This document shows, one piece after another, positions 50,324-63,095 of a stretch of 64,000 nucleotides of DNA. The notes beneath the pieces are model-generated. The model was not told where the DNA came from, did no database searches, and was given only the letters and a program-made list of their open reading frames with translations. The stretch is from contig VXLV01000066.1 of the NCBI GenBank assembly GCA_009841405.1, forward strand, positions 1 through 64,000. Direction: 5' to 3'. The stretch is from Chloroflexota bacterium. GTDB lineage: Bacteria > Chloroflexota > Anaerolineae > Aggregatilineales > Phototrophicaceae. The position numbers and the translations under genes are program-made. How positions within the stretch are numbered: position 1 is the stretch's first letter; each line of letters starts with the position of its first letter.

Positions 50324-51514
50324 ATGGTAGAAGTAAATCCTGAGATTTTAAGATGGGCGCGCGAGACTGCCGCTCTCGATATTGAAGAAGCAGCGCGAAA
50401 ACTTGGCCTTCGAGATTCGAAACGTCGCACAGCGGTAGAGAAACTCGTAGACCTAGAGTGCGGAGTAACGCGTCCCTCCTCGTCGCAGCTTGCAAAGATG
50501 TCGCAAGCATATTACCAGCCGCCCATAGTCTTTTACTTGCAGCAGCCGCCCAAGACCGGAGAGCGAGGCGAGGACTTCCGACCAGCATCCCAGCAGCGCG
50601 CCAATCACAAGGGCAACGCACATCTCAACTTGCTTATGCGAGACGTGAAGGTGTCTCAGTCGATCATCCGAGATCTGCTAGAAGAAAGCCGCGGTGAGAG
50701 ATTGGAATTTGTCAACTCCGCCGCAGAGTCTATGGGCGTTGAGGCTGTGGCGCTAGATATCATCGAGACCTTAGACTTTGATATTTACGAATTTCGCTCT
50801 GCTAGCAACGCTCGGATTGCATTCGATTATCTTCGCCGCCTAATTGAAGAGGGAGGCATTTTCGTGCTCCTTCTCAGTGATCTGGGTAGCCATCACACAA
50901 CAATTCCCATTGATGTATTTCAAAGCTTCGCCTTTGCTGATGACCTTGCTCCGTACGTCGTAATCAATCGTCAATGCGCTATATCCGGCTGGAGTTTCAC
51001 AGCCTTGCACGAAGTTGTGCATCTCTGGCTGGGCAAAAGCGGAGTATCCGGATACTGGAACGAAGACAAGATTGAACAATTCTGCAACCAAGTCGCGGGC
51101 ACAATTCTGTTTCGCCCTGTTGACCGCTCTAATCTTGCTCGTCGACTAAACGGTGGATGCCAATGCATACGGAAAGAGATAGAAACAGCTGCCTGCCAAA
51201 TGAATATAAGTCGAGCTATGCTCGCTTACCTATTGATGCTCGACAAGAAAATCAGTCGAGAGTGCTGGGAAATCCTTCAAGGATACTTTGGAAGTGTCCG
51301 TGTTCAACACATGGGAACTGAACGCAAAAGACGAAGTTCTCAGAATGGAGGGGCTAACTACTATGCGGTACGGCGCTACCGCCTCGGCAATCGCCTCATA
51401 GACTTGACTCGGTATTACGTTAGCACGGGCCAGCTATCCGCAACAAAAGCGGGGGTCGTTCTAGGGGTTGCGCCTACGAGAGTGCATCCACTTTTGTTTC
51501 CTGAACGAATTTGA
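50324..51514 (+). CDS. XRE-HTH plus ImmA/IrrE-type metallopeptidase domain protein
   Basis: N-terminal HTH-like region (RWARETAALDIEEAARKLGL...PSSSQLAKMSQAY); SGWSFTALHEVVHLWLGKSGVSG (HExxH). Confidence 0.9.
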   Translation: MVEVNPEILRWARETAALDIEEAARKLGLRDSKRRTAVEKLVDLECGVTRPSSSQLAKMSQAYYQPPIVFYLQQPPKTGERGEDFRPASQQRANHKGNAHLNLLMRDVKVSQSIIRDLLEESRGERLEFVNSAAESMGVEAVALDIIETLDFDIYEFRSASNARIAFDYLRRLIEEGGIFVLLLSDLGSHHTTIPIDVFQSFAFADDLAPYVVINRQCAISGWSFTALHEVVHLWLGKSGVSGYWNEDKIEQFCNQVAGTILFRPVDRSNLARRLNGGCQCIRKEIETAACQMNISRAMLAYLLMLDKKISRECWEILQGYFGSVRVQHMGTERKRRSSQNGGANYYAVRRYRLGNRLIDLTRYYVSTGQLSATKAGVVLGVAPTRVHPLLFPERI

Positions 51515-52053
51515 GGCCAACACTCTTGCTATATTTTCTGGACACAAGTGTTTTGATCGACGCAAAAAACAGATACTATCCACTTGAACGCATACCACAG
51601 TTCTGGAATTGGCTTGTACGTCAATCACTGGCGGGCAGCATAAAGCTGCCGCCTCAAGTAATTAGCGAAATCCTGGGATCCGAAGGTGCAGACGAAGAGC
51701 CTGTAGACATTCTTGCAGAGTGGGTGTTATTCAACCGAACTACATTGGAGTGGAACGACGAACTGTCCGTAGATTTACTTACCCGCACGTATAACCAAGG
51801 CTATGATAGCGCGCCTGAACATCTCACGACTGTGGATCCATTGACCGAACCCGCAGATCCATTCCTTATCGCCTATGCCCTTGAAAACCCGGACAGCCGT
51901 CGCGTCGTGACTATGGAAAATGTACAATCTGTTGGCACGACATTGCCAAAGCCCGCAAACCGAAAGATTCCGCTTGTATGCAGATTGCTTGGCGTGAAAT
52001 GTATAAATACCTTTGACCTAATTCGCGAACTTGACTTTCGAATTCCAATGTGA
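51511..52053 (+). CDS. DUF4411 family PIN-like protein
   Basis: YFLDTSVLIDAKNRYYPLERIPQFWNWL; DPFLIAYAL; TTG start overlapping the upstream stop. Confidence 0.82.
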   Translation: MRPTLLLYFLDTSVLIDAKNRYYPLERIPQFWNWLVRQSLAGSIKLPPQVISEILGSEGADEEPVDILAEWVLFNRTTLEWNDELSVDLLTRTYNQGYDSAPEHLTTVDPLTEPADPFLIAYALENPDSRRVVTMENVQSVGTTLPKPANRKIPLVCRLLGVKCINTFDLIRELDFRIPM

Positions 52054-55885: not shown

Positions 55886-56653
55886 ATGAAACTCTATTCC
55901 TGGAATGTCAATGGCATCCGCGCCGCGCAAAGGAAGGGCTTCCTGGACTGGTTCCACGCCGAAGGGCCGGACGTGCTGACCGTGCAAGAGACCAAAGCCT
56001 GGCCCGAACAGCTTGACCCCGAATTGCGCCGGCCGGAGGGCTACCATACCTGGTGGGTGCACGCCGAGCGCAAGGGCTACAGCGGCGTCGGCCTCTTCAG
56101 CAAGACTGAGCCGCGTGATATCAAGCTGGGCCTCGGCATCGAGAAATTCGACAGCGAGGGCCGCACTATCATCGCCGACTACGGCGACTTCACGCTGATG
56201 ACAACCTACCTGCCCAACGGCGGGCGCGACCACAAGCGGGTCCCCTACAAAATGGAGTATAAAGAAGCCTTTCTCGATTACGCTAATGGCCTGCGCGCGG
56301 CGGGCAAATCAGTGGTGATGACCGGCGACATCAATACCGCGCACAACGAGATTGACTTGGCCCGCCCCAAGCAAAACCGCAAGACGACCGGCTTCCTGCG
56401 CGAAGAGCGGGATTGGATCGACAAGGTGGTCGAGCAGGGTTATATCGACTCTTACCGCCACCTGAACCCGGAGAAGGAAGGCGCCTACTCCTGGTGGTCA
56501 ATGCGCAGCGGCGCGCGCGACAAGAATATCGGCTGGCGCATCGACTACTTCTTCATCTCGCCCGACCTGCTGCCGAAGATGGCCGCGGCCGAGATCCACG
56601 CCGATGTGCTGGGCAGCGACCACTGCCCGATCAGCCTGACGTTGGATGTTTGA
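55886..56653 (+). CDS. xth: Exodeoxyribonuclease III
   Basis: MKLYSWNVNGIRAAQRKGFLDWF; VLTVQETKAWPEQLD; GDINTAHNEIDLARPK; IDYFFISPDLLP ... SDHCPISLTL. Confidence 0.95.
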   Translation: MKLYSWNVNGIRAAQRKGFLDWFHAEGPDVLTVQETKAWPEQLDPELRRPEGYHTWWVHAERKGYSGVGLFSKTEPRDIKLGLGIEKFDSEGRTIIADYGDFTLMTTYLPNGGRDHKRVPYKMEYKEAFLDYANGLRAAGKSVVMTGDINTAHNEIDLARPKQNRKTTGFLREERDWIDKVVEQGYIDSYRHLNPEKEGAYSWWSMRSGARDKNIGWRIDYFFISPDLLPKMAAAEIHADVLGSDHCPISLTLDV

Positions 56654-56703: not shown

Positions 56704-57837
56704 TCACTCAGCCGCCACCACCAGCTCGCTGTGAATGTAGGCGGGTCGACCGTCGTATTCAAAGGCGTACCAGAGCGCAGTGCCAAAGACCACCTCGCCC
56801 TCGGCGCTGAAGGCTAGTAGGATTTCAGCGCCCGGACGCAAAGTGACAAGGATGTCGCAGTTGGTTTGCGGGCAAGCCCTAGCGTTCGCCCCACGATTGC
56901 CACGCGTCTCCACAAACATAGTCCGGTAAGTCGCGGTCGCTTCCGGCGTTGCAATCAGCGTAGCTGTCGCCGTCGGCGGCACGTCGGTCGACGGGACTTT
57001 AGTTGGCCTCTCGGAAGGCTGCGCGCTACTGTTGGTTTCCACCGATATGCTTGCAATGGGCGACCGAGCATTCTCTGCTGCAGCACGAACCTCAAGTATG
57101 ACGCGGTCGCCCGCTGACAAGCCCCCAATTCTCTCTAGAAACCCATATGCGACCTGCCATCTTGTAGGGGGCGGGTTATTTACTTGATATCGATATTCAT
57201 AGCGGTCCGAGCCGCGAACCGCCGACCAACTGAAGGCAATGCTGTGGGCTGTTATAGATCGGACTGCCAAGTTGGGCCGGGCGAGCATTCGGGCGGCAGG
57301 CGACGACGCAGGTGTCGACGTCGGGGACCGATAGCTCCGCGACGTGGATGAGCTTTTTCTGCTCGCAGTATTACTTGTCAAAAGAGTGCTGAAGCACACG
57401 AGAAATACAATGCTAAACAGCAAGGCTCTTGCAAGGGAATAGGCAGCAGCCACAGCACTTTTGCCCGATCCCGATCGTCTATTTGCGATTCGCCGCTGCC
57501 CCATCCCGCGCAATGTCCGCAATTGAGCGTCATCCAAATCGAACCACTCGCCGCGCGCGCGATGATTGGCAAAGCGTTGATGAAGATAGTATTCAAGCCT
57601 CGTGGCATCATTTGTCCTGAAAATATGGACAACTTTGGTTTCAAAAGGCAAGGTTACTTCAAACTTGTTCAGCCGTCGATAAGGATGGTTTGTACGTCCG
57701 ATCTTGTAACGACGGCTAAAGTCGACGTCTTGAATGACGTATACATAACCGGCAGGCGGTTCAAGCCGCGGCAACCGTTCGTAATTCGCTATAGGGACAC
57801 TCAAGACTTCCCAATGTTGCCGCATTGAATTTGCCAT
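56704..57837 (-). CDS. GIY-YIG-like (T5orf172/MUG113) N-terminal domain, TM, FnIII-like and SH3b-like C-terminal regions
   Basis: GYVYVIQDVDFSRRYKIGRTNHPYRRLNKFEV...ATRLEYYLHQRFANHRARGEWFDLDDAQL; TM LLFSIVFLVCFSTLL; C-terminal RGNRGANARACPQTNCDILVTLRPGAEILL. Confidence 0.78.
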   Translation of the reverse strand: MANSMRQHWEVLSVPIANYERLPRLEPPAGYVYVIQDVDFSRRYKIGRTNHPYRRLNKFEVTLPFETKVVHIFRTNDATRLEYYLHQRFANHRARGEWFDLDDAQLRTLRGMGQRRIANRRSGSGKSAVAAAYSLARALLFSIVFLVCFSTLLTSNTASRKSSSTSRSYRSPTSTPASSPAARMLARPNLAVRSITAHSIAFSWSAVRGSDRYEYRYQVNNPPPTRWQVAYGFLERIGGLSAGDRVILEVRAAAENARSPIASISVETNSSAQPSERPTKVPSTDVPPTATATLIATPEATATYRTMFVETRGNRGANARACPQTNCDILVTLRPGAEILLAFSAEGEVVFGTALWYAFEYDGRPAYIHSELVVAAE

Positions 57838-57918
57838 TCTGAAACAGATTATGCGAGATTATAGCATGAAGCCGGCCGCATTCGCCCGGAGTGACGACAG
57901 CCGCGTCTGACCGCGACA

Positions 57919-58002
57919 GATGTGCTGGAAACTGGCAGTCTTGAGACGGTCGCCGAGATCGACATCCTCGAAAACGACAACAGCACCCGCCGACGCAGGC
58001 GC
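57919..58002 (-). pseudogene. Remnant of another GIY-YIG-like N-terminal domain
   Basis: Minus-strand reading APASAGAVVVFEDVDLGDRLKTASFQHI aligns with SPPAGYVIVIEDIDLGDRFKIVVMQEV of the 58772-60232 protein. Confidence 0.6.
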
Positions 58003-58008
58003 CTGCCA

Positions 58009-58716
58009 CTACCAGGTGGTGCGATATCCAGTAGCCGGGGTCGTAATCATCAACACGATAATGAGAATGATGACTAGAACCGTAACAATTCTGGGAAGCA
58101 CATTCGGATGCTTCTCCGTCCATTGCCAGAATCTGTATCCCAGGGTTCCCGGCTCGGGTGGCGGCGGCGGTTCCGGAGCGTCCTCATCCACCGGCAGGGA
58201 CACAGGACGGTAACGGTGACGCCGAAGCCCGGCCCGGCCGTACTCCTTGATTGTCGGGGGCTTTGGCCGCTCTTGCCGATCCGCGCCCTGCAAGTACGCT
58301 GCCATCAGGAGTTCATATCGCGTGCCTTCACTGACGGGCGCCTGCTGAGATTGCCGCGCCAGTTGCGGTGTCAGATAGTGACTGCTGTGGCTGTCGATCT
58401 GCAGAGCTGAGGACCGCAATTCACCCAGTTGATAGGCGTCCAGTGTCAGCCAGGCGCTGCCGAGACGCGCTTGGTGAGCTTCGTAGAGGCCGGATTCGCT
58501 CGCTGACAAATCCGCCGACTTCAGGATTGAAATCAACTCGATTCCCATTTTCCCTTCGGCCCCAGCTGACGCGGCATGAACCAAAGACGCGGGATCCTGC
58601 GTCCCCTGGATGCGATACGCGTCGCGTCCGATATCTCGAATGACACAGATGTAGCCGGCTGGCGCGTCTAGCGCCGGCAATGCCAGATAATCTTTGGGCG
58701 GCAGACTCTTCAACAT
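58009..58716 (-). CDS. Degenerate GIY-YIG-like domain with C-terminal TM anchor
   Basis: APAGYICVIRDIGRDAYRIQGTQDPASLV...SESGLYEAHQARLGSAWLTLDAYQLGELR; TM VLPRIVTVLVIILIIVLMITT; start taken at MLKSLPPKDYLALP. Confidence 0.7.
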   Translation of the reverse strand: MLKSLPPKDYLALPALDAPAGYICVIRDIGRDAYRIQGTQDPASLVHAASAGAEGKMGIELISILKSADLSASESGLYEAHQARLGSAWLTLDAYQLGELRSSALQIDSHSSHYLTPQLARQSQQAPVSEGTRYELLMAAYLQGADRQERPKPPTIKEYGRAGLRRHRYRPVSLPVDEDAPEPPPPPEPGTLGYRFWQWTEKHPNVLPRIVTVLVIILIIVLMITTPATGYRTTW

Positions 58717-58771
58717 AACATAATCTCGCGCGACTCTAACGCTGCATGCGACAGACGCAGCCGCGTACGCC

Positions 58772-60232
58772 TCACAGGCTTTCGGCGACCAACTCGCCGT
58801 GAACGTAGGCAAGGCGGCCATCATACTCGAAGGCGACCCAGCGCGCGATGCCGTTGACGACCTCGCCCTCGGCCTCGCCGTCCGGATTGATTGCGGCGCC
58901 CGGGCGCAGCCGGCCCAGAATCTCGCAGTCCGTGCTGGGGCATGCCCGCACAAGCGCGTTGAGGTTATTCGCAGTTTCGATGTAGAGCACGGCGGGCAAG
59001 TCAGTCGCCGCCACAGTCGGTTCCACGGTCGCAGTCGCTGTCGGTTCCAAGTCGGCCGTCGCCGTCGGCTCATCGGTGCCGGTCGCTTCCGGAGCGGCGG
59101 TCGCCGTTGATCGCAAAGTCGCCGTGTGACGCGGCGGCGCCGTTTCACTCGGCTCGGCGGTGGCGATCGGTTTGTCGGTGGAAGTAGGCGCGCGCGTGTT
59201 GGTGGAGCTTGCTGCGGCGGGCGCAATCGTATTGGTCGGCGCTAGCGTATCGGTCGGCATGGCAGTCTTGGTAGATGTCGCCGACGGCATGGCGGTATGG
59301 CTCGCGGTCGCTGACGGCCGTACCGTCACAGCAACTGCAGGTCGACTCCGCGACAGCACCGAACTATGCACATATAGCGTCCTGCCTCGGCGCAAGAATG
59401 CGATCCAGGCGCTATTGCCGTCTATAGCCTGTCCGCTCTCGTGCCGTTGCGCCGCTATCCTTGCGCCGACTTCCAGAATCTCAGCCGCGCGGCAGGCTCG
59501 GCTGGCGCAGACACGCGCGTTCGCCCGCACCATCACATAGAACACATCGCCAGCGCGCGCGAAAGGCGTGGGCGATACCCTGGCCGTCGGCGACGGGCGC
59601 GCAGTCGCTGAGGCAAAGACTCGCGGCTGGCTTTGCTCCGTGAGCGGATTCGCCAGTTCGCTGAGGATCCGGCGCAACTGTGGCGCGTTGCCCAAAACAG
59701 CCGCGCCCAGCGCAACGATCGCCAGCAGCAGCAGCCAGGTCCCCAAGCGGCGCTGCGGACGCGGACGCGCGGCCTGAGTTTGTCGCGGCGACGCGTGCGG
59801 CGGCGCGGCGACGACGCGCGACTTGTCGACAAGCGATCGCCCCTCCGCCTCGCTCAGCGCCAGGTCGCGCAGAGACGGCTGGCCGGACTCCCGCCGAGGC
59901 CGCCGCCCGAAGTTTCGCAGCTGGCCGACTTCTGCCGGGTCGAGGTCAAACCAGTCGTCGATGTCGCCGCCGGGCGCGAAACGATCATGCAGTTCCAGCG
60001 CCAGCGCCTCAGCGTCCGCAGCCGATAGCGCCAGGAACAATTTCGTTTCAAAGACCAGATCCATCTGACCCGCGAGCGCGCGCCGGTTGACCTCCTGCAT
60101 GACCACGATCTTGAAGCGGTCGCCGAGATCGATGTCTTCAATGACGATGACATAACCCGCCGGCGGACTCAGCCGCGGCAGATTCCTCGCCCGCGCTAAT
60201 GGTATGTGTTTGATGCCCCGCGCATCCGGCAC
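58772..60232 (-). CDS. Degenerate GIY-YIG-like N-terminal domain, TM, Thr/Ser/Pro-rich linker and SH3b-like domains
   Basis: PPAGYVIVIEDIDLGDRFKIVVMQEVNRRALAG...LELHDRFAPGGDIDDWFDLDPAEV; TM LGTWLLLLAIVALGAAVLG; C-terminal TANNLNALVRACPSTDCEILGRLRPGAAI. Confidence 0.75.
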   Translation of the reverse strand: MPDARGIKHIPLARARNLPRLSPPAGYVIVIEDIDLGDRFKIVVMQEVNRRALAGQMDLVFETKLFLALSAADAEALALELHDRFAPGGDIDDWFDLDPAEVGQLRNFGRRPRRESGQPSLRDLALSEAEGRSLVDKSRVVAAPPHASPRQTQAARPRPQRRLGTWLLLLAIVALGAAVLGNAPQLRRILSELANPLTEQSQPRVFASATARPSPTARVSPTPFARAGDVFYVMVRANARVCASRACRAAEILEVGARIAAQRHESGQAIDGNSAWIAFLRRGRTLYVHSSVLSRSRPAVAVTVRPSATASHTAMPSATSTKTAMPTDTLAPTNTIAPAAASSTNTRAPTSTDKPIATAEPSETAPPRHTATLRSTATAAPEATGTDEPTATADLEPTATATVEPTVAATDLPAVLYIETANNLNALVRACPSTDCEILGRLRPGAAINPDGEAEGEVVNGIARWVAFEYDGRLAYVHGELVAESL

Positions 60233-60358
60233 GGTTCGCTCCGCAGATGAATACAGTCGCGAGTCAGACTATAACATAAGCTAGGACTGTCGGGCTTCAA
60301 TTGGCCGGGGCCGCTCCCCAAGGCTTTCAAGCGCGCCAAGGCCTTGCCGACGCTTCAT

Positions 60359-60550
60359 TCACGGCTGGAGAATGACGAATGGAAATCCCTCGTACGCCAA
60401 CAGAAAGACAAACAAGATAGCGACGATGGCTGCAAAGACAACGATGCGCTTAATCAGCCACTCGCCGATGAATTCTTTGAACCTGGCTTCGGTCGAAAGG
60501 CGGTAACGGCGTTCGGGCAATTGGCGCCTCAAGCGCGGGCAGCGCCGCAA
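60359..60550 (-). CDS. Small single-TM ORF inside the GIY-YIG-like array (possible TM-tail remnant)
   Basis: ARFKEFIGEWLIKRIVVFAAIVAILFVFLLAYEGF resembles the C-terminal TM tails of neighbouring proteins. Confidence 0.35.
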   Translation of the reverse strand: MRRCPRLRRQLPERRYRLSTEARFKEFIGEWLIKRIVVFAAIVAILFVFLLAYEGFPFVILQP

Positions 60551-60636
60551 AGTCTCGGGGGGCGTGGCTTCTCACGCCGTCACTCTCTTCGTGCTTGCGC
60601 TTGATTGCCCGTTTACGCGGACCATCTTGTAGTGCG

Positions 60637-61365
60637 CTAACTGCATCCGTCCATAACGCAAAGAATCGCAGACAATATTAGACACAATACCACTTGCAGC
60701 GCCTTGCCGGCATCGCTTTCGCGGAAGTTTTCAAGACGCTCCGATATGCTCAGCGCCAGGCGCTGCGGACTGTCCAGGCCCTCTCGCCAGTCGGGAGCTT
60801 CCTGCTCCTTATAGGACTTCAGCGACTTGGCGCCATACGCTCGAAACAGCGGTTGCCTCGCGGAACCGCTCGGCCGCAGCCCCGCGCGGTCCCACCGCAG
60901 CCCCGCGCGGTCCCGCCGCAACCCCCAGCGGTCCCGGCGCCGACGCCGCCCGGCTTGGCCGGCTGGCGGCGTCTTCGGCGCATCCGCGGGCGCGCTTTGC
61001 GTCAAGTAGCGGCTCGGGTGCGCGTCAATCTGCAGCACCGAGCGGCGCAGCGCCTCCAGTTGGTATTCGTCCAGCTCCAGCCAGGCGTCGCTCAGCTGCG
61101 CCTGATGTTGCTCGTAGAGCATCGCTTCGCTGGCGGCCAGGTCTTCCGTGTCCAGTATGGAAACGACCTCGATGCCAAAGCGCGACCCGCTCTCGGCAAG
61201 CGCATCCTCAATCAAATCACGCGGATGGCGCGCGCCCTCAATTCGCCACAGGTCGCTTTCGATATCTCGCAACACGCAGACATAGCCCGCCGGCGGCTCA
61301 TGCCGTGGCTGCGATTCGTAATCTCTCGGGTCAATGCTCTGCATGTCGCTTTGTCCCGCTTCCAA
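60637..61365 (-). CDS. Degenerate GIY-YIG-like domain with C-terminal TM anchor
   Basis: PPAGYVCVLRDIESDLWRIEGARHPRDLI...SEAMLYEQHQAQLSDAWLELDEYQLEALRRSVLQIDAHPSRYLT, paralogous to 58009-58716; C-terminal hydrophobic segment. Confidence 0.72.
   Translation of the reverse strand: MEAGQSDMQSIDPRDYESQPRHEPPAGYVCVLRDIESDLWRIEGARHPRDLIEDALAESGSRFGIEVVSILDTEDLAASEAMLYEQHQAQLSDAWLELDEYQLEALRRSVLQIDAHPSRYLTQSAPADAPKTPPAGQAGRRRRRDRWGLRRDRAGLRWDRAGLRPSGSARQPLFRAYGAKSLKSYKEQEAPDWREGLDSPQRLALSISERLENFRESDAGKALQVVLCLILSAILCVMDGCS
60874..60936. repeat. 21-bp minisatellite, three units, in frame within the CDS at 60637-61365
   Basis: ccgcagccccgcgcggtccca / ccgcagccccgcgcggtcccg / ccgcaacccccagcggtcccg. 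Confidence 0.8.
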
Positions 61366-61499: not shown

Positions 61500-62072
61500 A
61501 TGAACATCAGTCGCGTCGTCGACGAGAGCTACGCCATCGCCGCCAAAGCCTTGGTCATGGGCACATCGCCGCAAGCGCTGGCGCGGGCGCGCGAACGCGC
61601 CTTTGTCAAAGCGCTGGCGGCTCGCCTCCGCAATGAATACGCCGGCGACGACATTCGCGTGTTTTCTCGATTCGGGCGCGGCAACTGGCGCGAATTTGGC
61701 GCGGAACAGCTGCTCAGTGATATATGCGTCTGCCGCGTCGACAGCGGTCGAACGGGCGGACGTCAAAGCCGGGACTTTCTCTTTGTGACGGAGGCGCTCG
61801 CGCAAGCGGAAGTCGAATTGTCGCGCGATTGGCGGCGCGAGGTCCAGGCGCTGAACCGGCTGATTGCCGGGTCGGCTGCCGCCAAGCTGATGGTGACGGC
61901 CTTGCCCGCGCGCGGCAGCGCAGAAAGCCTTGAGACACTACAGGCGCCCTTCGCCGCGCTGCCCGGCGCCGCCAGCCTGGCCCTGATCCCGCACCCCGCA
62001 GATTGGGAGACAACCGAGGCGGCGCCAGAAGCTTGGCGCCTTGATGAAGGCGAGTGGATCCAGTCGTCCTGA
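61500..62072 (+). CDS. Hypothetical soluble protein
   Basis: ORF with ATG at 61500; RDFLFVTEALAQAEVELSRDWRREVQALNRLIAGSAAAKLMV; no family recognised with confidence. Confidence 0.6.
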   Translation: MNISRVVDESYAIAAKALVMGTSPQALARARERAFVKALAARLRNEYAGDDIRVFSRFGRGNWREFGAEQLLSDICVCRVDSGRTGGRQSRDFLFVTEALAQAEVELSRDWRREVQALNRLIAGSAAAKLMVTALPARGSAESLETLQAPFAALPGAASLALIPHPADWETTEAAPEAWRLDEGEWIQSS

Positions 62073-62108
62073 GCCACAGGGAACGATAATTCGTGAGCGG
62101 GAGGGAAA

Positions 62109-63095
62109 ATGACCGTATCAGCCATCATACTGATCTTGACCTTGTTCATCGCCAGCCTGGCCGGCCACAATCAGCGCGAGGACCCGTCAACCCAGCGCGC
62201 GCTGCCGTGGATTGACACCTTGGCGCTAATCCGAGCGGACGATGGCCAGCGCCTGCGAGTCAACGGGCGCCACGCTGAAAATTGCGGCGCGCCCTGGCAA
62301 ACCCGCGTCCACGCCTTCCCGCACAATCTGGATGTCCAGCTTTACCGCGAGGTCGCCACTGCCGCCGACTGCAGCCCCCAAGACGCTCCCTTTGAAATTG
62401 AGCTGGACCTCGACAGCGCTTTGGACGAGCGCGCCGTCATCATCAACGATCAGGTGTGGGGGGCTTCGCGCGCCGACTTTGTCAAACTTAGTCTTTTCCC
62501 GGCGTGGATCGAGCAGGCGACGCTGCTGCCGGACGCGAACGGCGGCCCGCGACTGCGCCTGCAAGGCAGCCAGGCCGTGGGCTGTACCCTGCCGCTGCTC
62601 TTCACCTGGCGCGAGACTGGCGGCGGGCTGTCTTTGGGCGTGTATAACGCCATGGATGCCGCCGGTGTATGCCCGGCCGTGCTGGTCGATATCGACGAAA
62701 CTATCGTCTTGCCCGCAACCGAATTGCCCGCCGATACGTTATTGGAGGTGAACGGCATACTCGTCAATGAACTGGAGACGCAGAACGTGAGCGACACTGA
62801 CAAAGTCCTGACCAATATCTTTCAAGTTGATGCAACCGTTGCGGGCGATCGCGTCAGCCTGGCCGTCGCAGGCGAGCATCCCGACGGCTGCGATTACCCT
62901 GTGCGGGTCGCGCAAAGCCGCGACGGCAACCGGGTACAAGTAGAGGTCTACCGGGAGATTCCAGCCGATGTCTTCTGCCCGATGATTCTGCAACCCTACA
63001 ATGGCGTTATCGAGATCGAAGGCGCGTTTGCCGCCGGTGACTATGCCATCCAGGTCAATTCTCATTCGCAGACGGTAAATATCCCGGGAGCCTGA
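62109..63095 (+). CDS. Predicted exported protein with three ~100-aa Cys-containing repeats
   Basis: N-terminal hydrophobic segment; repeats GRHAENCGAPWQTRV...VQLYREV..AADC / GSQAVGCTLPLLFTW...LGVYNAM..AGVC / GEHPDGCDYPVRVAQ...VEVYREI.PADVFC. Confidence 0.7.
   Translation: MTVSAIILILTLFIASLAGHNQREDPSTQRALPWIDTLALIRADDGQRLRVNGRHAENCGAPWQTRVHAFPHNLDVQLYREVATAADCSPQDAPFEIELDLDSALDERAVIINDQVWGASRADFVKLSLFPAWIEQATLLPDANGGPRLRLQGSQAVGCTLPLLFTWRETGGGLSLGVYNAMDAAGVCPAVLVDIDETIVLPATELPADTLLEVNGILVNELETQNVSDTDKVLTNIFQVDATVAGDRVSLAVAGEHPDGCDYPVRVAQSRDGNRVQVEVYREIPADVFCPMILQPYNGVIEIEGAFAAGDYAIQVNSHSQTVNIPGA

Follow-up and report, generated by a model that had tools for sequence, protein, structure and literature searches.

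SNIPE (PD-lambda-1) is a membrane-tethered GIY-YIG nuclease that cuts phage DNA during injection (Saxton et al. 2026; PMC13190303). The protein becomes toxic when its transmembrane (TM) segment is removed, and its DUF4041 domain is needed for defense (PMC13190303). Cutting viral DNA during its passage across the membrane was described as a new form of self/non-self discrimination only in 2026, with SNIPE. Here, we analyzed an array of four genes in a 64,000-nucleotide stretch of a Chloroflexota bacterium genome (assembly GCA_009841405.1, contig VXLV01000066.1, positions 1 to 64,000; hereafter the window). The encoded proteins, P0001 to P0004, all begin with a domain homologous to the GIY-YIG (T5orf172/MUG113) nucleases. 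We tentatively propose that P0001 is a membrane-tethered nuclease of the SNIPE kind, with the topology reversed and DUF4041 missing, and that its neighbors act as a noncatalytic receptor and noncatalytic adaptors.

Results

The array combines one canonical and three degenerate GIY-YIG-like domains

Four homologous genes are present on the minus strand, as originally predicted (Table 1), and their products have a common N-terminal domain about 100 residues long. The PPAGY module that had been assigned to all four proteins is indeed common to them, with one departure: in window order the motifs read PPAGYVYVIQD, APAGYICVIRD, PPAGYVIVIED, and PPAGYVCVLRD, so that three are PPAGY and one is APAGY. 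A profile built from type C proteins only (P0002, P0004, and their relatives; see below) matched P0001 at E = 8.4e-17 and P0003 at 3.1e-7, far beyond chance. P0001 alone passed the cutoff of the Pfam GIY-YIG clan, with P0002, P0003, and P0004 falling below every Pfam nuclease model. When aligned by hhalign to five canonical T5orf172 domains of other genera, the domains of types C and B gave probabilities of 95.7% and 97.7%, respectively. Profile-profile comparison thus indicates that homology of the P0002, P0003, and P0004 domains to T5orf172/MUG113 is secure, and the GIY-YIG homology proposed originally is supported for all four domains. AlphaFold2 models of P0002 and P0003 showed the order beta-beta-alpha-beta-alpha, with a predicted local distance difference test (pLDDT) score mostly >90 for type C and about 90 for type B. 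Sequence searches of the PDB with P0001 and with the type C profile returned no meaningful matches.

Across 40 retrieved loci, the domains split into a canonical type A (P0001 in the window) and degenerate types B (P0003) and C (P0002 and P0004). The array is therefore composed of three types and not of two copies of a pair. The duplication of a two-gene unit that had been suggested does not fit these data: the SH3b-bearing proteins of types A and B fall in different parts of the domain tree, the two copies with only a TM segment are not sisters, and many combinations of A, B, and C are found at the corresponding sites of other genomes.

P0001 is a member of MUG113 (PF13455; 2.4e-17, 63.7 bits against a cutoff of 22.3) and T5orf172 (PF10544; 3.6e-13, 50.3 bits against a cutoff of 20) by score, whereas types B and C, though homologous, lie below these models. 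It keeps all 13 columns that are invariant in six T5orf172 domains, among them two DUF4041/SNIPE-like proteins, one RhuM protein, and proteins of the two-TM kind. Among the four array proteins, only P0001 has the full set of GIY tyrosine, YIG glycine, arginine, and glutamate of GIY-YIG nucleases. Its residue E82 aligns with the conserved glutamate of DUF4041 proteins, an equivalence drawn from proteins of the same bacterial family and not from the Escherichia coli SNIPE sequence. P0001 was also the only one of the four to match the PADLOC profiles PDC-S57 (3.8e-8) and PD-Lambda-1 (5.9e-5).

In contrast, the GIY tyrosine was retained in 0 of 19 type B and 0 of 39 type C domains and the YIG glycine in 2 of 19 and 0 of 39, and the conserved arginine was usually lost in both types. 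Median domain isoelectric points (pI) were 5.3 for B, 4.7 for C, and 9.3 (mostly basic) for A; the A set used for pI and residue counts also includes second, degenerate domains of two-domain proteins, and the length filter of the script that called the types placed P0002 in it, although P0002 shows the type C losses. Since catalytic residues are missing from the other three proteins and the domains of types B and C are acidic, P0001 is the only credible nuclease of the four, and a nuclease function is plausible from its sequence. The nucleic acid targeting envisaged in the original prediction is thus tenable for P0001 only; the dead, acidic domains of B and C are unlikely to act on DNA.

Selection was estimated as the ratio of nonsynonymous to synonymous substitution rates (dN/dS) in four orthologous pairs. 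Values for the B and C domains were 0.12 to 0.24, similar to the A domain (0.17), and whole-gene values, which include the loose linkers, were 0.25 to 0.54. The purifying selection on the B and C domains indicates that they are functional pseudo-nucleases that have been kept by selection.

Two observations concern the history of the domains. The synonymous divergence (dS) of type A between genomes G000 and G001 was 0.34, against about 0.65 in neighboring genes; recombination of type A between these genomes was considered and dropped, as the alignment held no clear identity block. Relatives of the type A domain occurred in viral contigs at 29 to 37% identity, as expected for T5orf172. Type C relatives were not found in viral contigs, and a phage origin of the degenerate type was rejected on this ground.

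The proteins are predicted to be single-pass membrane proteins

TM segments were found in all four proteins by hydropathy and in the models of P0002 and P0003. The mean net charge of type B proteins was +5.2 before the TM segment versus +0.5 after it, which supports a cytoplasmic N terminus. Hydropathy, charge, and the lack of a signal peptide together predict single-pass anchoring with the nuclease-like domain in the cytoplasm and SH3b outside, in agreement with the topology proposed originally. For type C, the N terminus is likewise predicted to be inside, from the lack of a signal peptide and from homology. In type C proteins, a median of 7 residues follows the TM segment, which makes it a tail anchor. 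Both proteins described as having only a C-terminal TM segment (58716 and 61365) do carry a predicted one, but the second gene most likely starts at ATG 61344 rather than TTG 61365, because its relatives begin with M-x-S-(L/I)-x-P at this position.

C-terminal SH3b domains were correctly recognized in P0001 and P0003, although P0003 has two and not one. The Pfam SH3_3 match of P0003 (1.4e-7, 32.0 bits, cutoff 27) agrees with AlphaFold and Foldseek. The SH3b domain of P0001 scores below the Pfam cutoff but is homologous, with 48% identity to P0003 and a relative (L080) above the cutoff. A type B relative gave an fn3 match (1.3e-4) below the Pfam cutoff. Type B proteins carry 1 to 9 SH3b domains beyond the TM segment. 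The longest, of 1,061 residues (L074:8034-11219), has nine repeats and its orthologue in a close relative (L078) has eight; ectodomain length therefore changes between close species. P0003 shares its SH3b fold with the SH3_3/SH3b cell-wall-binding domains, for example those of lysostaphin and GBAA_2967, but in this family the domains occur in up to nine repeats and are tethered to a pseudo-nuclease domain. In G029 and G025, the type A gene adjoins a gene for a short protein that combines SH3b with an N-terminal hydrophobic anchor and lacks a GIY-YIG domain (L080:6810-7256 and L076:7368-7799).

Type C was found in one genus only, and the array occupies a conserved chromosomal site

The domain assignments, the missing catalytic residues, the predicted TM segments, the selection estimates, the synteny, and the restriction to one genus are computational results; nuclease activity, its substrate, the topology in vivo, hetero-oligomerization, and a part in defense are inferred from them. 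The genomes compared are metagenome-assembled genomes (MAGs) or unnamed assemblies, in which absences are soft. Of the 34 genomes in the window's genus, 30 were matched by the type C profile at E = 0.001; 25 of these carried a true type C gene (E <1e-40), and in the other five the matches were to A or B domains alone. The 120 other genomes of the order (61 genera in all) gave no match. Within a 400-genome sample of the phylum, in which four candidates were scored per genome, P0001-like GIY-YIG domains were detected in one further genome. Canonical MUG113 domains examined outside the genus occurred with DUF4041, with RhuM, with two TM segments, or alone, and never with SH3b; among the genomes examined, fusion of GIY-YIG to TM and SH3b was seen in this genus only. 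Literature searches that combined GIY-YIG with SH3b, or sponge Chloroflexota with SH3, gave no result. The named relatives are MAGs of Anaerolineae/Chloroflexi, and names such as COS and RHO, which resemble sponge data sets (Coscinoderma and Rhopaloeides; PMC8163846), lead us to infer a sponge habitat.

An xthA-like gene and the gene for a 190-residue protein border the array in about 26 genomes, within the same order of ordinary genes. Each site holds 0 to 4 members: A-C-B-C in the window, G029, and G025, and CBC, CBCC, BCC, CCB, BC, C, B, or A elsewhere. The site is empty in G015 and G031, and alignment of the window with G001 showed that the C-B-C segment is cleanly absent in the latter. 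Type C is also present at 15 of the 19 sites with type B, where the two are neighbors, so the adjacency of SH3b and TM-only genes noted in the window recurs elsewhere; B-C pairing is common but not obligatory. A defense island, raised as a possible neighborhood, was ruled out, as the site is a fixed, syntenic stretch of conserved housekeeping genes in about 26 genomes.

Discussion

P0001 resembles SNIPE in having a membrane-anchored T5orf172-type GIY-YIG domain, predicted by hydropathy and charge to lie on the cytoplasmic side, and the PD-Lambda-1 profile matches it within the nuclease part, where the catalytic-type glutamate is conserved. It differs in its SH3b ectodomain and in clustering with catalytically dead paralogues. 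Because it lacks DUF4041 and has the opposite order of nuclease and TM segment, P0001 is not a member of SNIPE, but it may work like it. The SNIPE precedent (PMC13190303) lends support to the envelope-associated nuclease of the original prediction, for P0001 only. A different genus of this bacterial family has SNIPE-like proteins with DUF4041 and T5orf172 (L163:6503-7954 and L164:5817-7484), one with a predicted N-terminal TM segment. Two other described groups share only the domain: PDC-S57, a PADLOC candidate defense family, matches P0001 in its GIY-YIG part and gives no evidence of the same architecture, and RhuM-family proteins whose C-terminal domain is MUG113, which the same bacterial family also encodes (G131), have a RhuM N terminus, no TM segment found, and no SH3b.

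These comparisons lead us to a tentative reading, which we hold with somewhat less than even confidence, in which P0001 is a SNIPE-like tethered nuclease, type B a receptor, and type C an adaptor. Each protein would be a single-pass protein built on one cytoplasmic GIY-YIG module. In P0001, the nuclease would lie against the inside of the membrane and SH3b in the envelope beyond it; like SNIPE, P0001 would cut foreign DNA on entry, the tether keeping it off the chromosome. The SH3b ectodomain of the dead type B receptor could bind the envelope or incoming material, and the dead, tail-anchored type C protein could act as a cytoplasmic adaptor that hetero-oligomerizes through the shared fold. 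A second membrane T5orf172 nuclease built differently, in the opposite order and with external SH3b, would suggest that the SNIPE strategy evolved more than once, and a conserved family of dead GIY-YIG receptors, maintained by purifying selection, would mean that membrane signaling has put a nuclease fold to an uncommon use. Several results weigh against this reading. Pfam searches detected no DUF4041 in P0001 to P0004, and the nuclease of P0001 is N-terminal, before the TM segment, the reverse of the order in SNIPE. Type A occupies the site in only 4 of the 31 genomes where the site is readable, and a canonical MUG113 domain was not detected in eight of the genomes that carry type C; B and C thus cannot depend on the nuclease and must have a role of their own. 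The neighbors of the site are conserved ordinary genes and not defense genes or mobile elements. Residues before the TM segment were the more positive in only 6 of 39 type C proteins, so that charge does not discriminate between their orientations. Finally, Foldseek with the type C model placed GIY-YIG proteins (1zg2, E = 0.45; Slx1, E = 1.2) at the top by probability, with poor E values.

The strongest alternative, which we regard as rather doubtful but of real weight, is that the whole family serves envelope signaling or scaffolding outside defense, with the GIY-YIG fold used for protein interaction, P0001 optional, and SH3b binding the cell wall, the surface layer, or sponge-host material. 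The widespread members are B and C, which are catalytically dead and acidic; the SH3b arrays range from 1 to 9; and the family is genus restricted, with a fixed housekeeping site and mostly vertical inheritance. What such a role would leave unexplained is type A, whose domain is basic, fully conserved in its catalytic residues, and strongly constrained (domain dN/dS 0.17). A further, unlikely reading is a genus-specific envelope surveillance system, with the tethered nuclease and the dead GIY-YIG paralogues forming one receptor-effector assembly. Dead SH3b receptors would sense phage on entry or damage to the wall and pass this on to the tail-anchored adaptor and, where present, to the inverted SNIPE-like nuclease; if so, pseudo-nucleases would serve as transmembrane signaling subunits.

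It is distinctly improbable that the dead paralogues are inhibitors that restrain P0001 by dimerizing with it or by acidic mimicry of DNA. The shared fold, the acidic dead domains, and the position of B and C next to A in the window, G029, and G025 are compatible with such a role, but many genomes have B or C without type A at the site, eight lack any canonical MUG113 domain, and G001 has A without B or C there. An obligate toxin-inhibitor pair is disfavored for the same reason, since type A and the dead types each occur without the other. A role in DNA uptake (competence), or in cutting external DNA for nutrition, would account for the membrane attachment of the nuclease-like domain, but this is very improbable given that the domain is predicted to be cytoplasmic and that no uptake genes were recognized among the conserved neighbors. 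Least credible are decaying, functionless paralogues left by duplication: catalytic residues are lost and copy number is variable, but open frames are kept across the genus and the domain dN/dS of B and C in orthologous pairs rules out pseudogenes.

Features of the window and related loci

Table 1. Positions of the array genes, their domains, and the flanking genes in the window
Feature	Position	Strand	Description and basis
P0001, type A gene, 377 aa	56704..57837	-	GIY-YIG (T5orf172/MUG113), TM, FN3-like stretch, Thr-rich linker, SH3b
P0001 GIY-YIG domain	57508..57756	-	Y33, K45-I46-G47, R55, E82, H86, E97-W-F99; 13 invariant columns kept
P0001 TM, about residues 135-153	57379..57435	-	Hydropathy
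P0001 FN3-like stretch, about residues 185-272	57022..57285	-	By eye; no Pfam match in P0001
P0001 SH3b	56719..56919	-	Family SH3b hidden Markov model (HMM); Pfam SH3_3 0.054, below cutoff
P0002, type C gene 1, 235 aa	58009..58716	-	Degenerate acidic GIY-YIG-like domain, low-complexity linker, C-terminal TM; translation
P0002 pseudo-GIY-YIG domain	58402..58716	-	hhalign 95.7% to canonical T5orf172 domains
P0002 C-terminal TM (tail anchor)	58045..58101	-	Hydropathy; helix 206-225 in AlphaFold2 model
P0003, type B gene, 486 aa	58772..60232	-	Degenerate acidic GIY-YIG-like domain, TM, SH3b, Thr-rich linker, SH3b; translation, AlphaFold2, Foldseek
P0003 pseudo-GIY-YIG domain	59912..60175	-	hhalign 97.7%, E 2e-12
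P0003 TM helix, residues 161-181	59690..59752	-	Hydropathy and AlphaFold2 model
P0003 SH3b-1	59363..59545	-	AlphaFold pLDDT about 93; family SH3b HMM
P0003 SH3b-2	58790..58987	-	Pfam SH3_3 1.4e-7; family SH3b HMM
P0004, type C gene 2, 235 aa, probable start ATG 61344	60637..61344	-	Degenerate GIY-YIG-like domain, linker, C-terminal TM; translation
P0004 pseudo-GIY-YIG domain	61021..61344	-	Type C alignment
P0004 C-terminal TM (tail anchor)	60643..60699	-	Hydropathy
Left flank, xthA-like exonuclease III (by eye), outside the system	55886..56653	+	Conserved neighbor in about 26 genomes
Right flank, 190-aa protein, outside the system	61500..62072	+	Conserved neighbor; no Pfam match

Related proteins were encoded at other loci. 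A second fixed site, near an aldehyde dehydrogenase gene (L081:16535-17521, L082:14199-15173, L092:4134-5177, and L085:13954-14939), encodes a protein with two MUG113-like domains, the first degenerate and the second canonical, and a C-terminal TM segment; the G019 copy is split in two frames. At a third site, found in the window's genome and in relatives (L094:7190-9512, L108:4696-6798, and L111:6530-9567), a canonical MUG113 domain follows N-terminal TM segments and adjoins a second MUG113 gene. Yet another site encodes proteins in which a canonical and a degenerate GIY-YIG domain share a chain with TM and SH3b (L105:8189-9748 and L107:8193-9674), and a further protein of the window's genome (L095:8557-10011) has three divergent T5orf172-like domains in a row.

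A promoter scan returned zero sigma-70-type sites. To the right of the array on the plus strand (61500-63095), two conserved neighbors of 190 and 328 aa without a Pfam match are followed by a DUF4139/DUF4140 protein. At 50324-52053 on the plus strand, a toxin-antitoxin-like gene pair encodes, as judged by eye, an XRE/ImmA-IrrE-type regulator with an HExxH motif and a PIN-like protein, and in many of the genus's genomes relatives of this pair are found near the array site.

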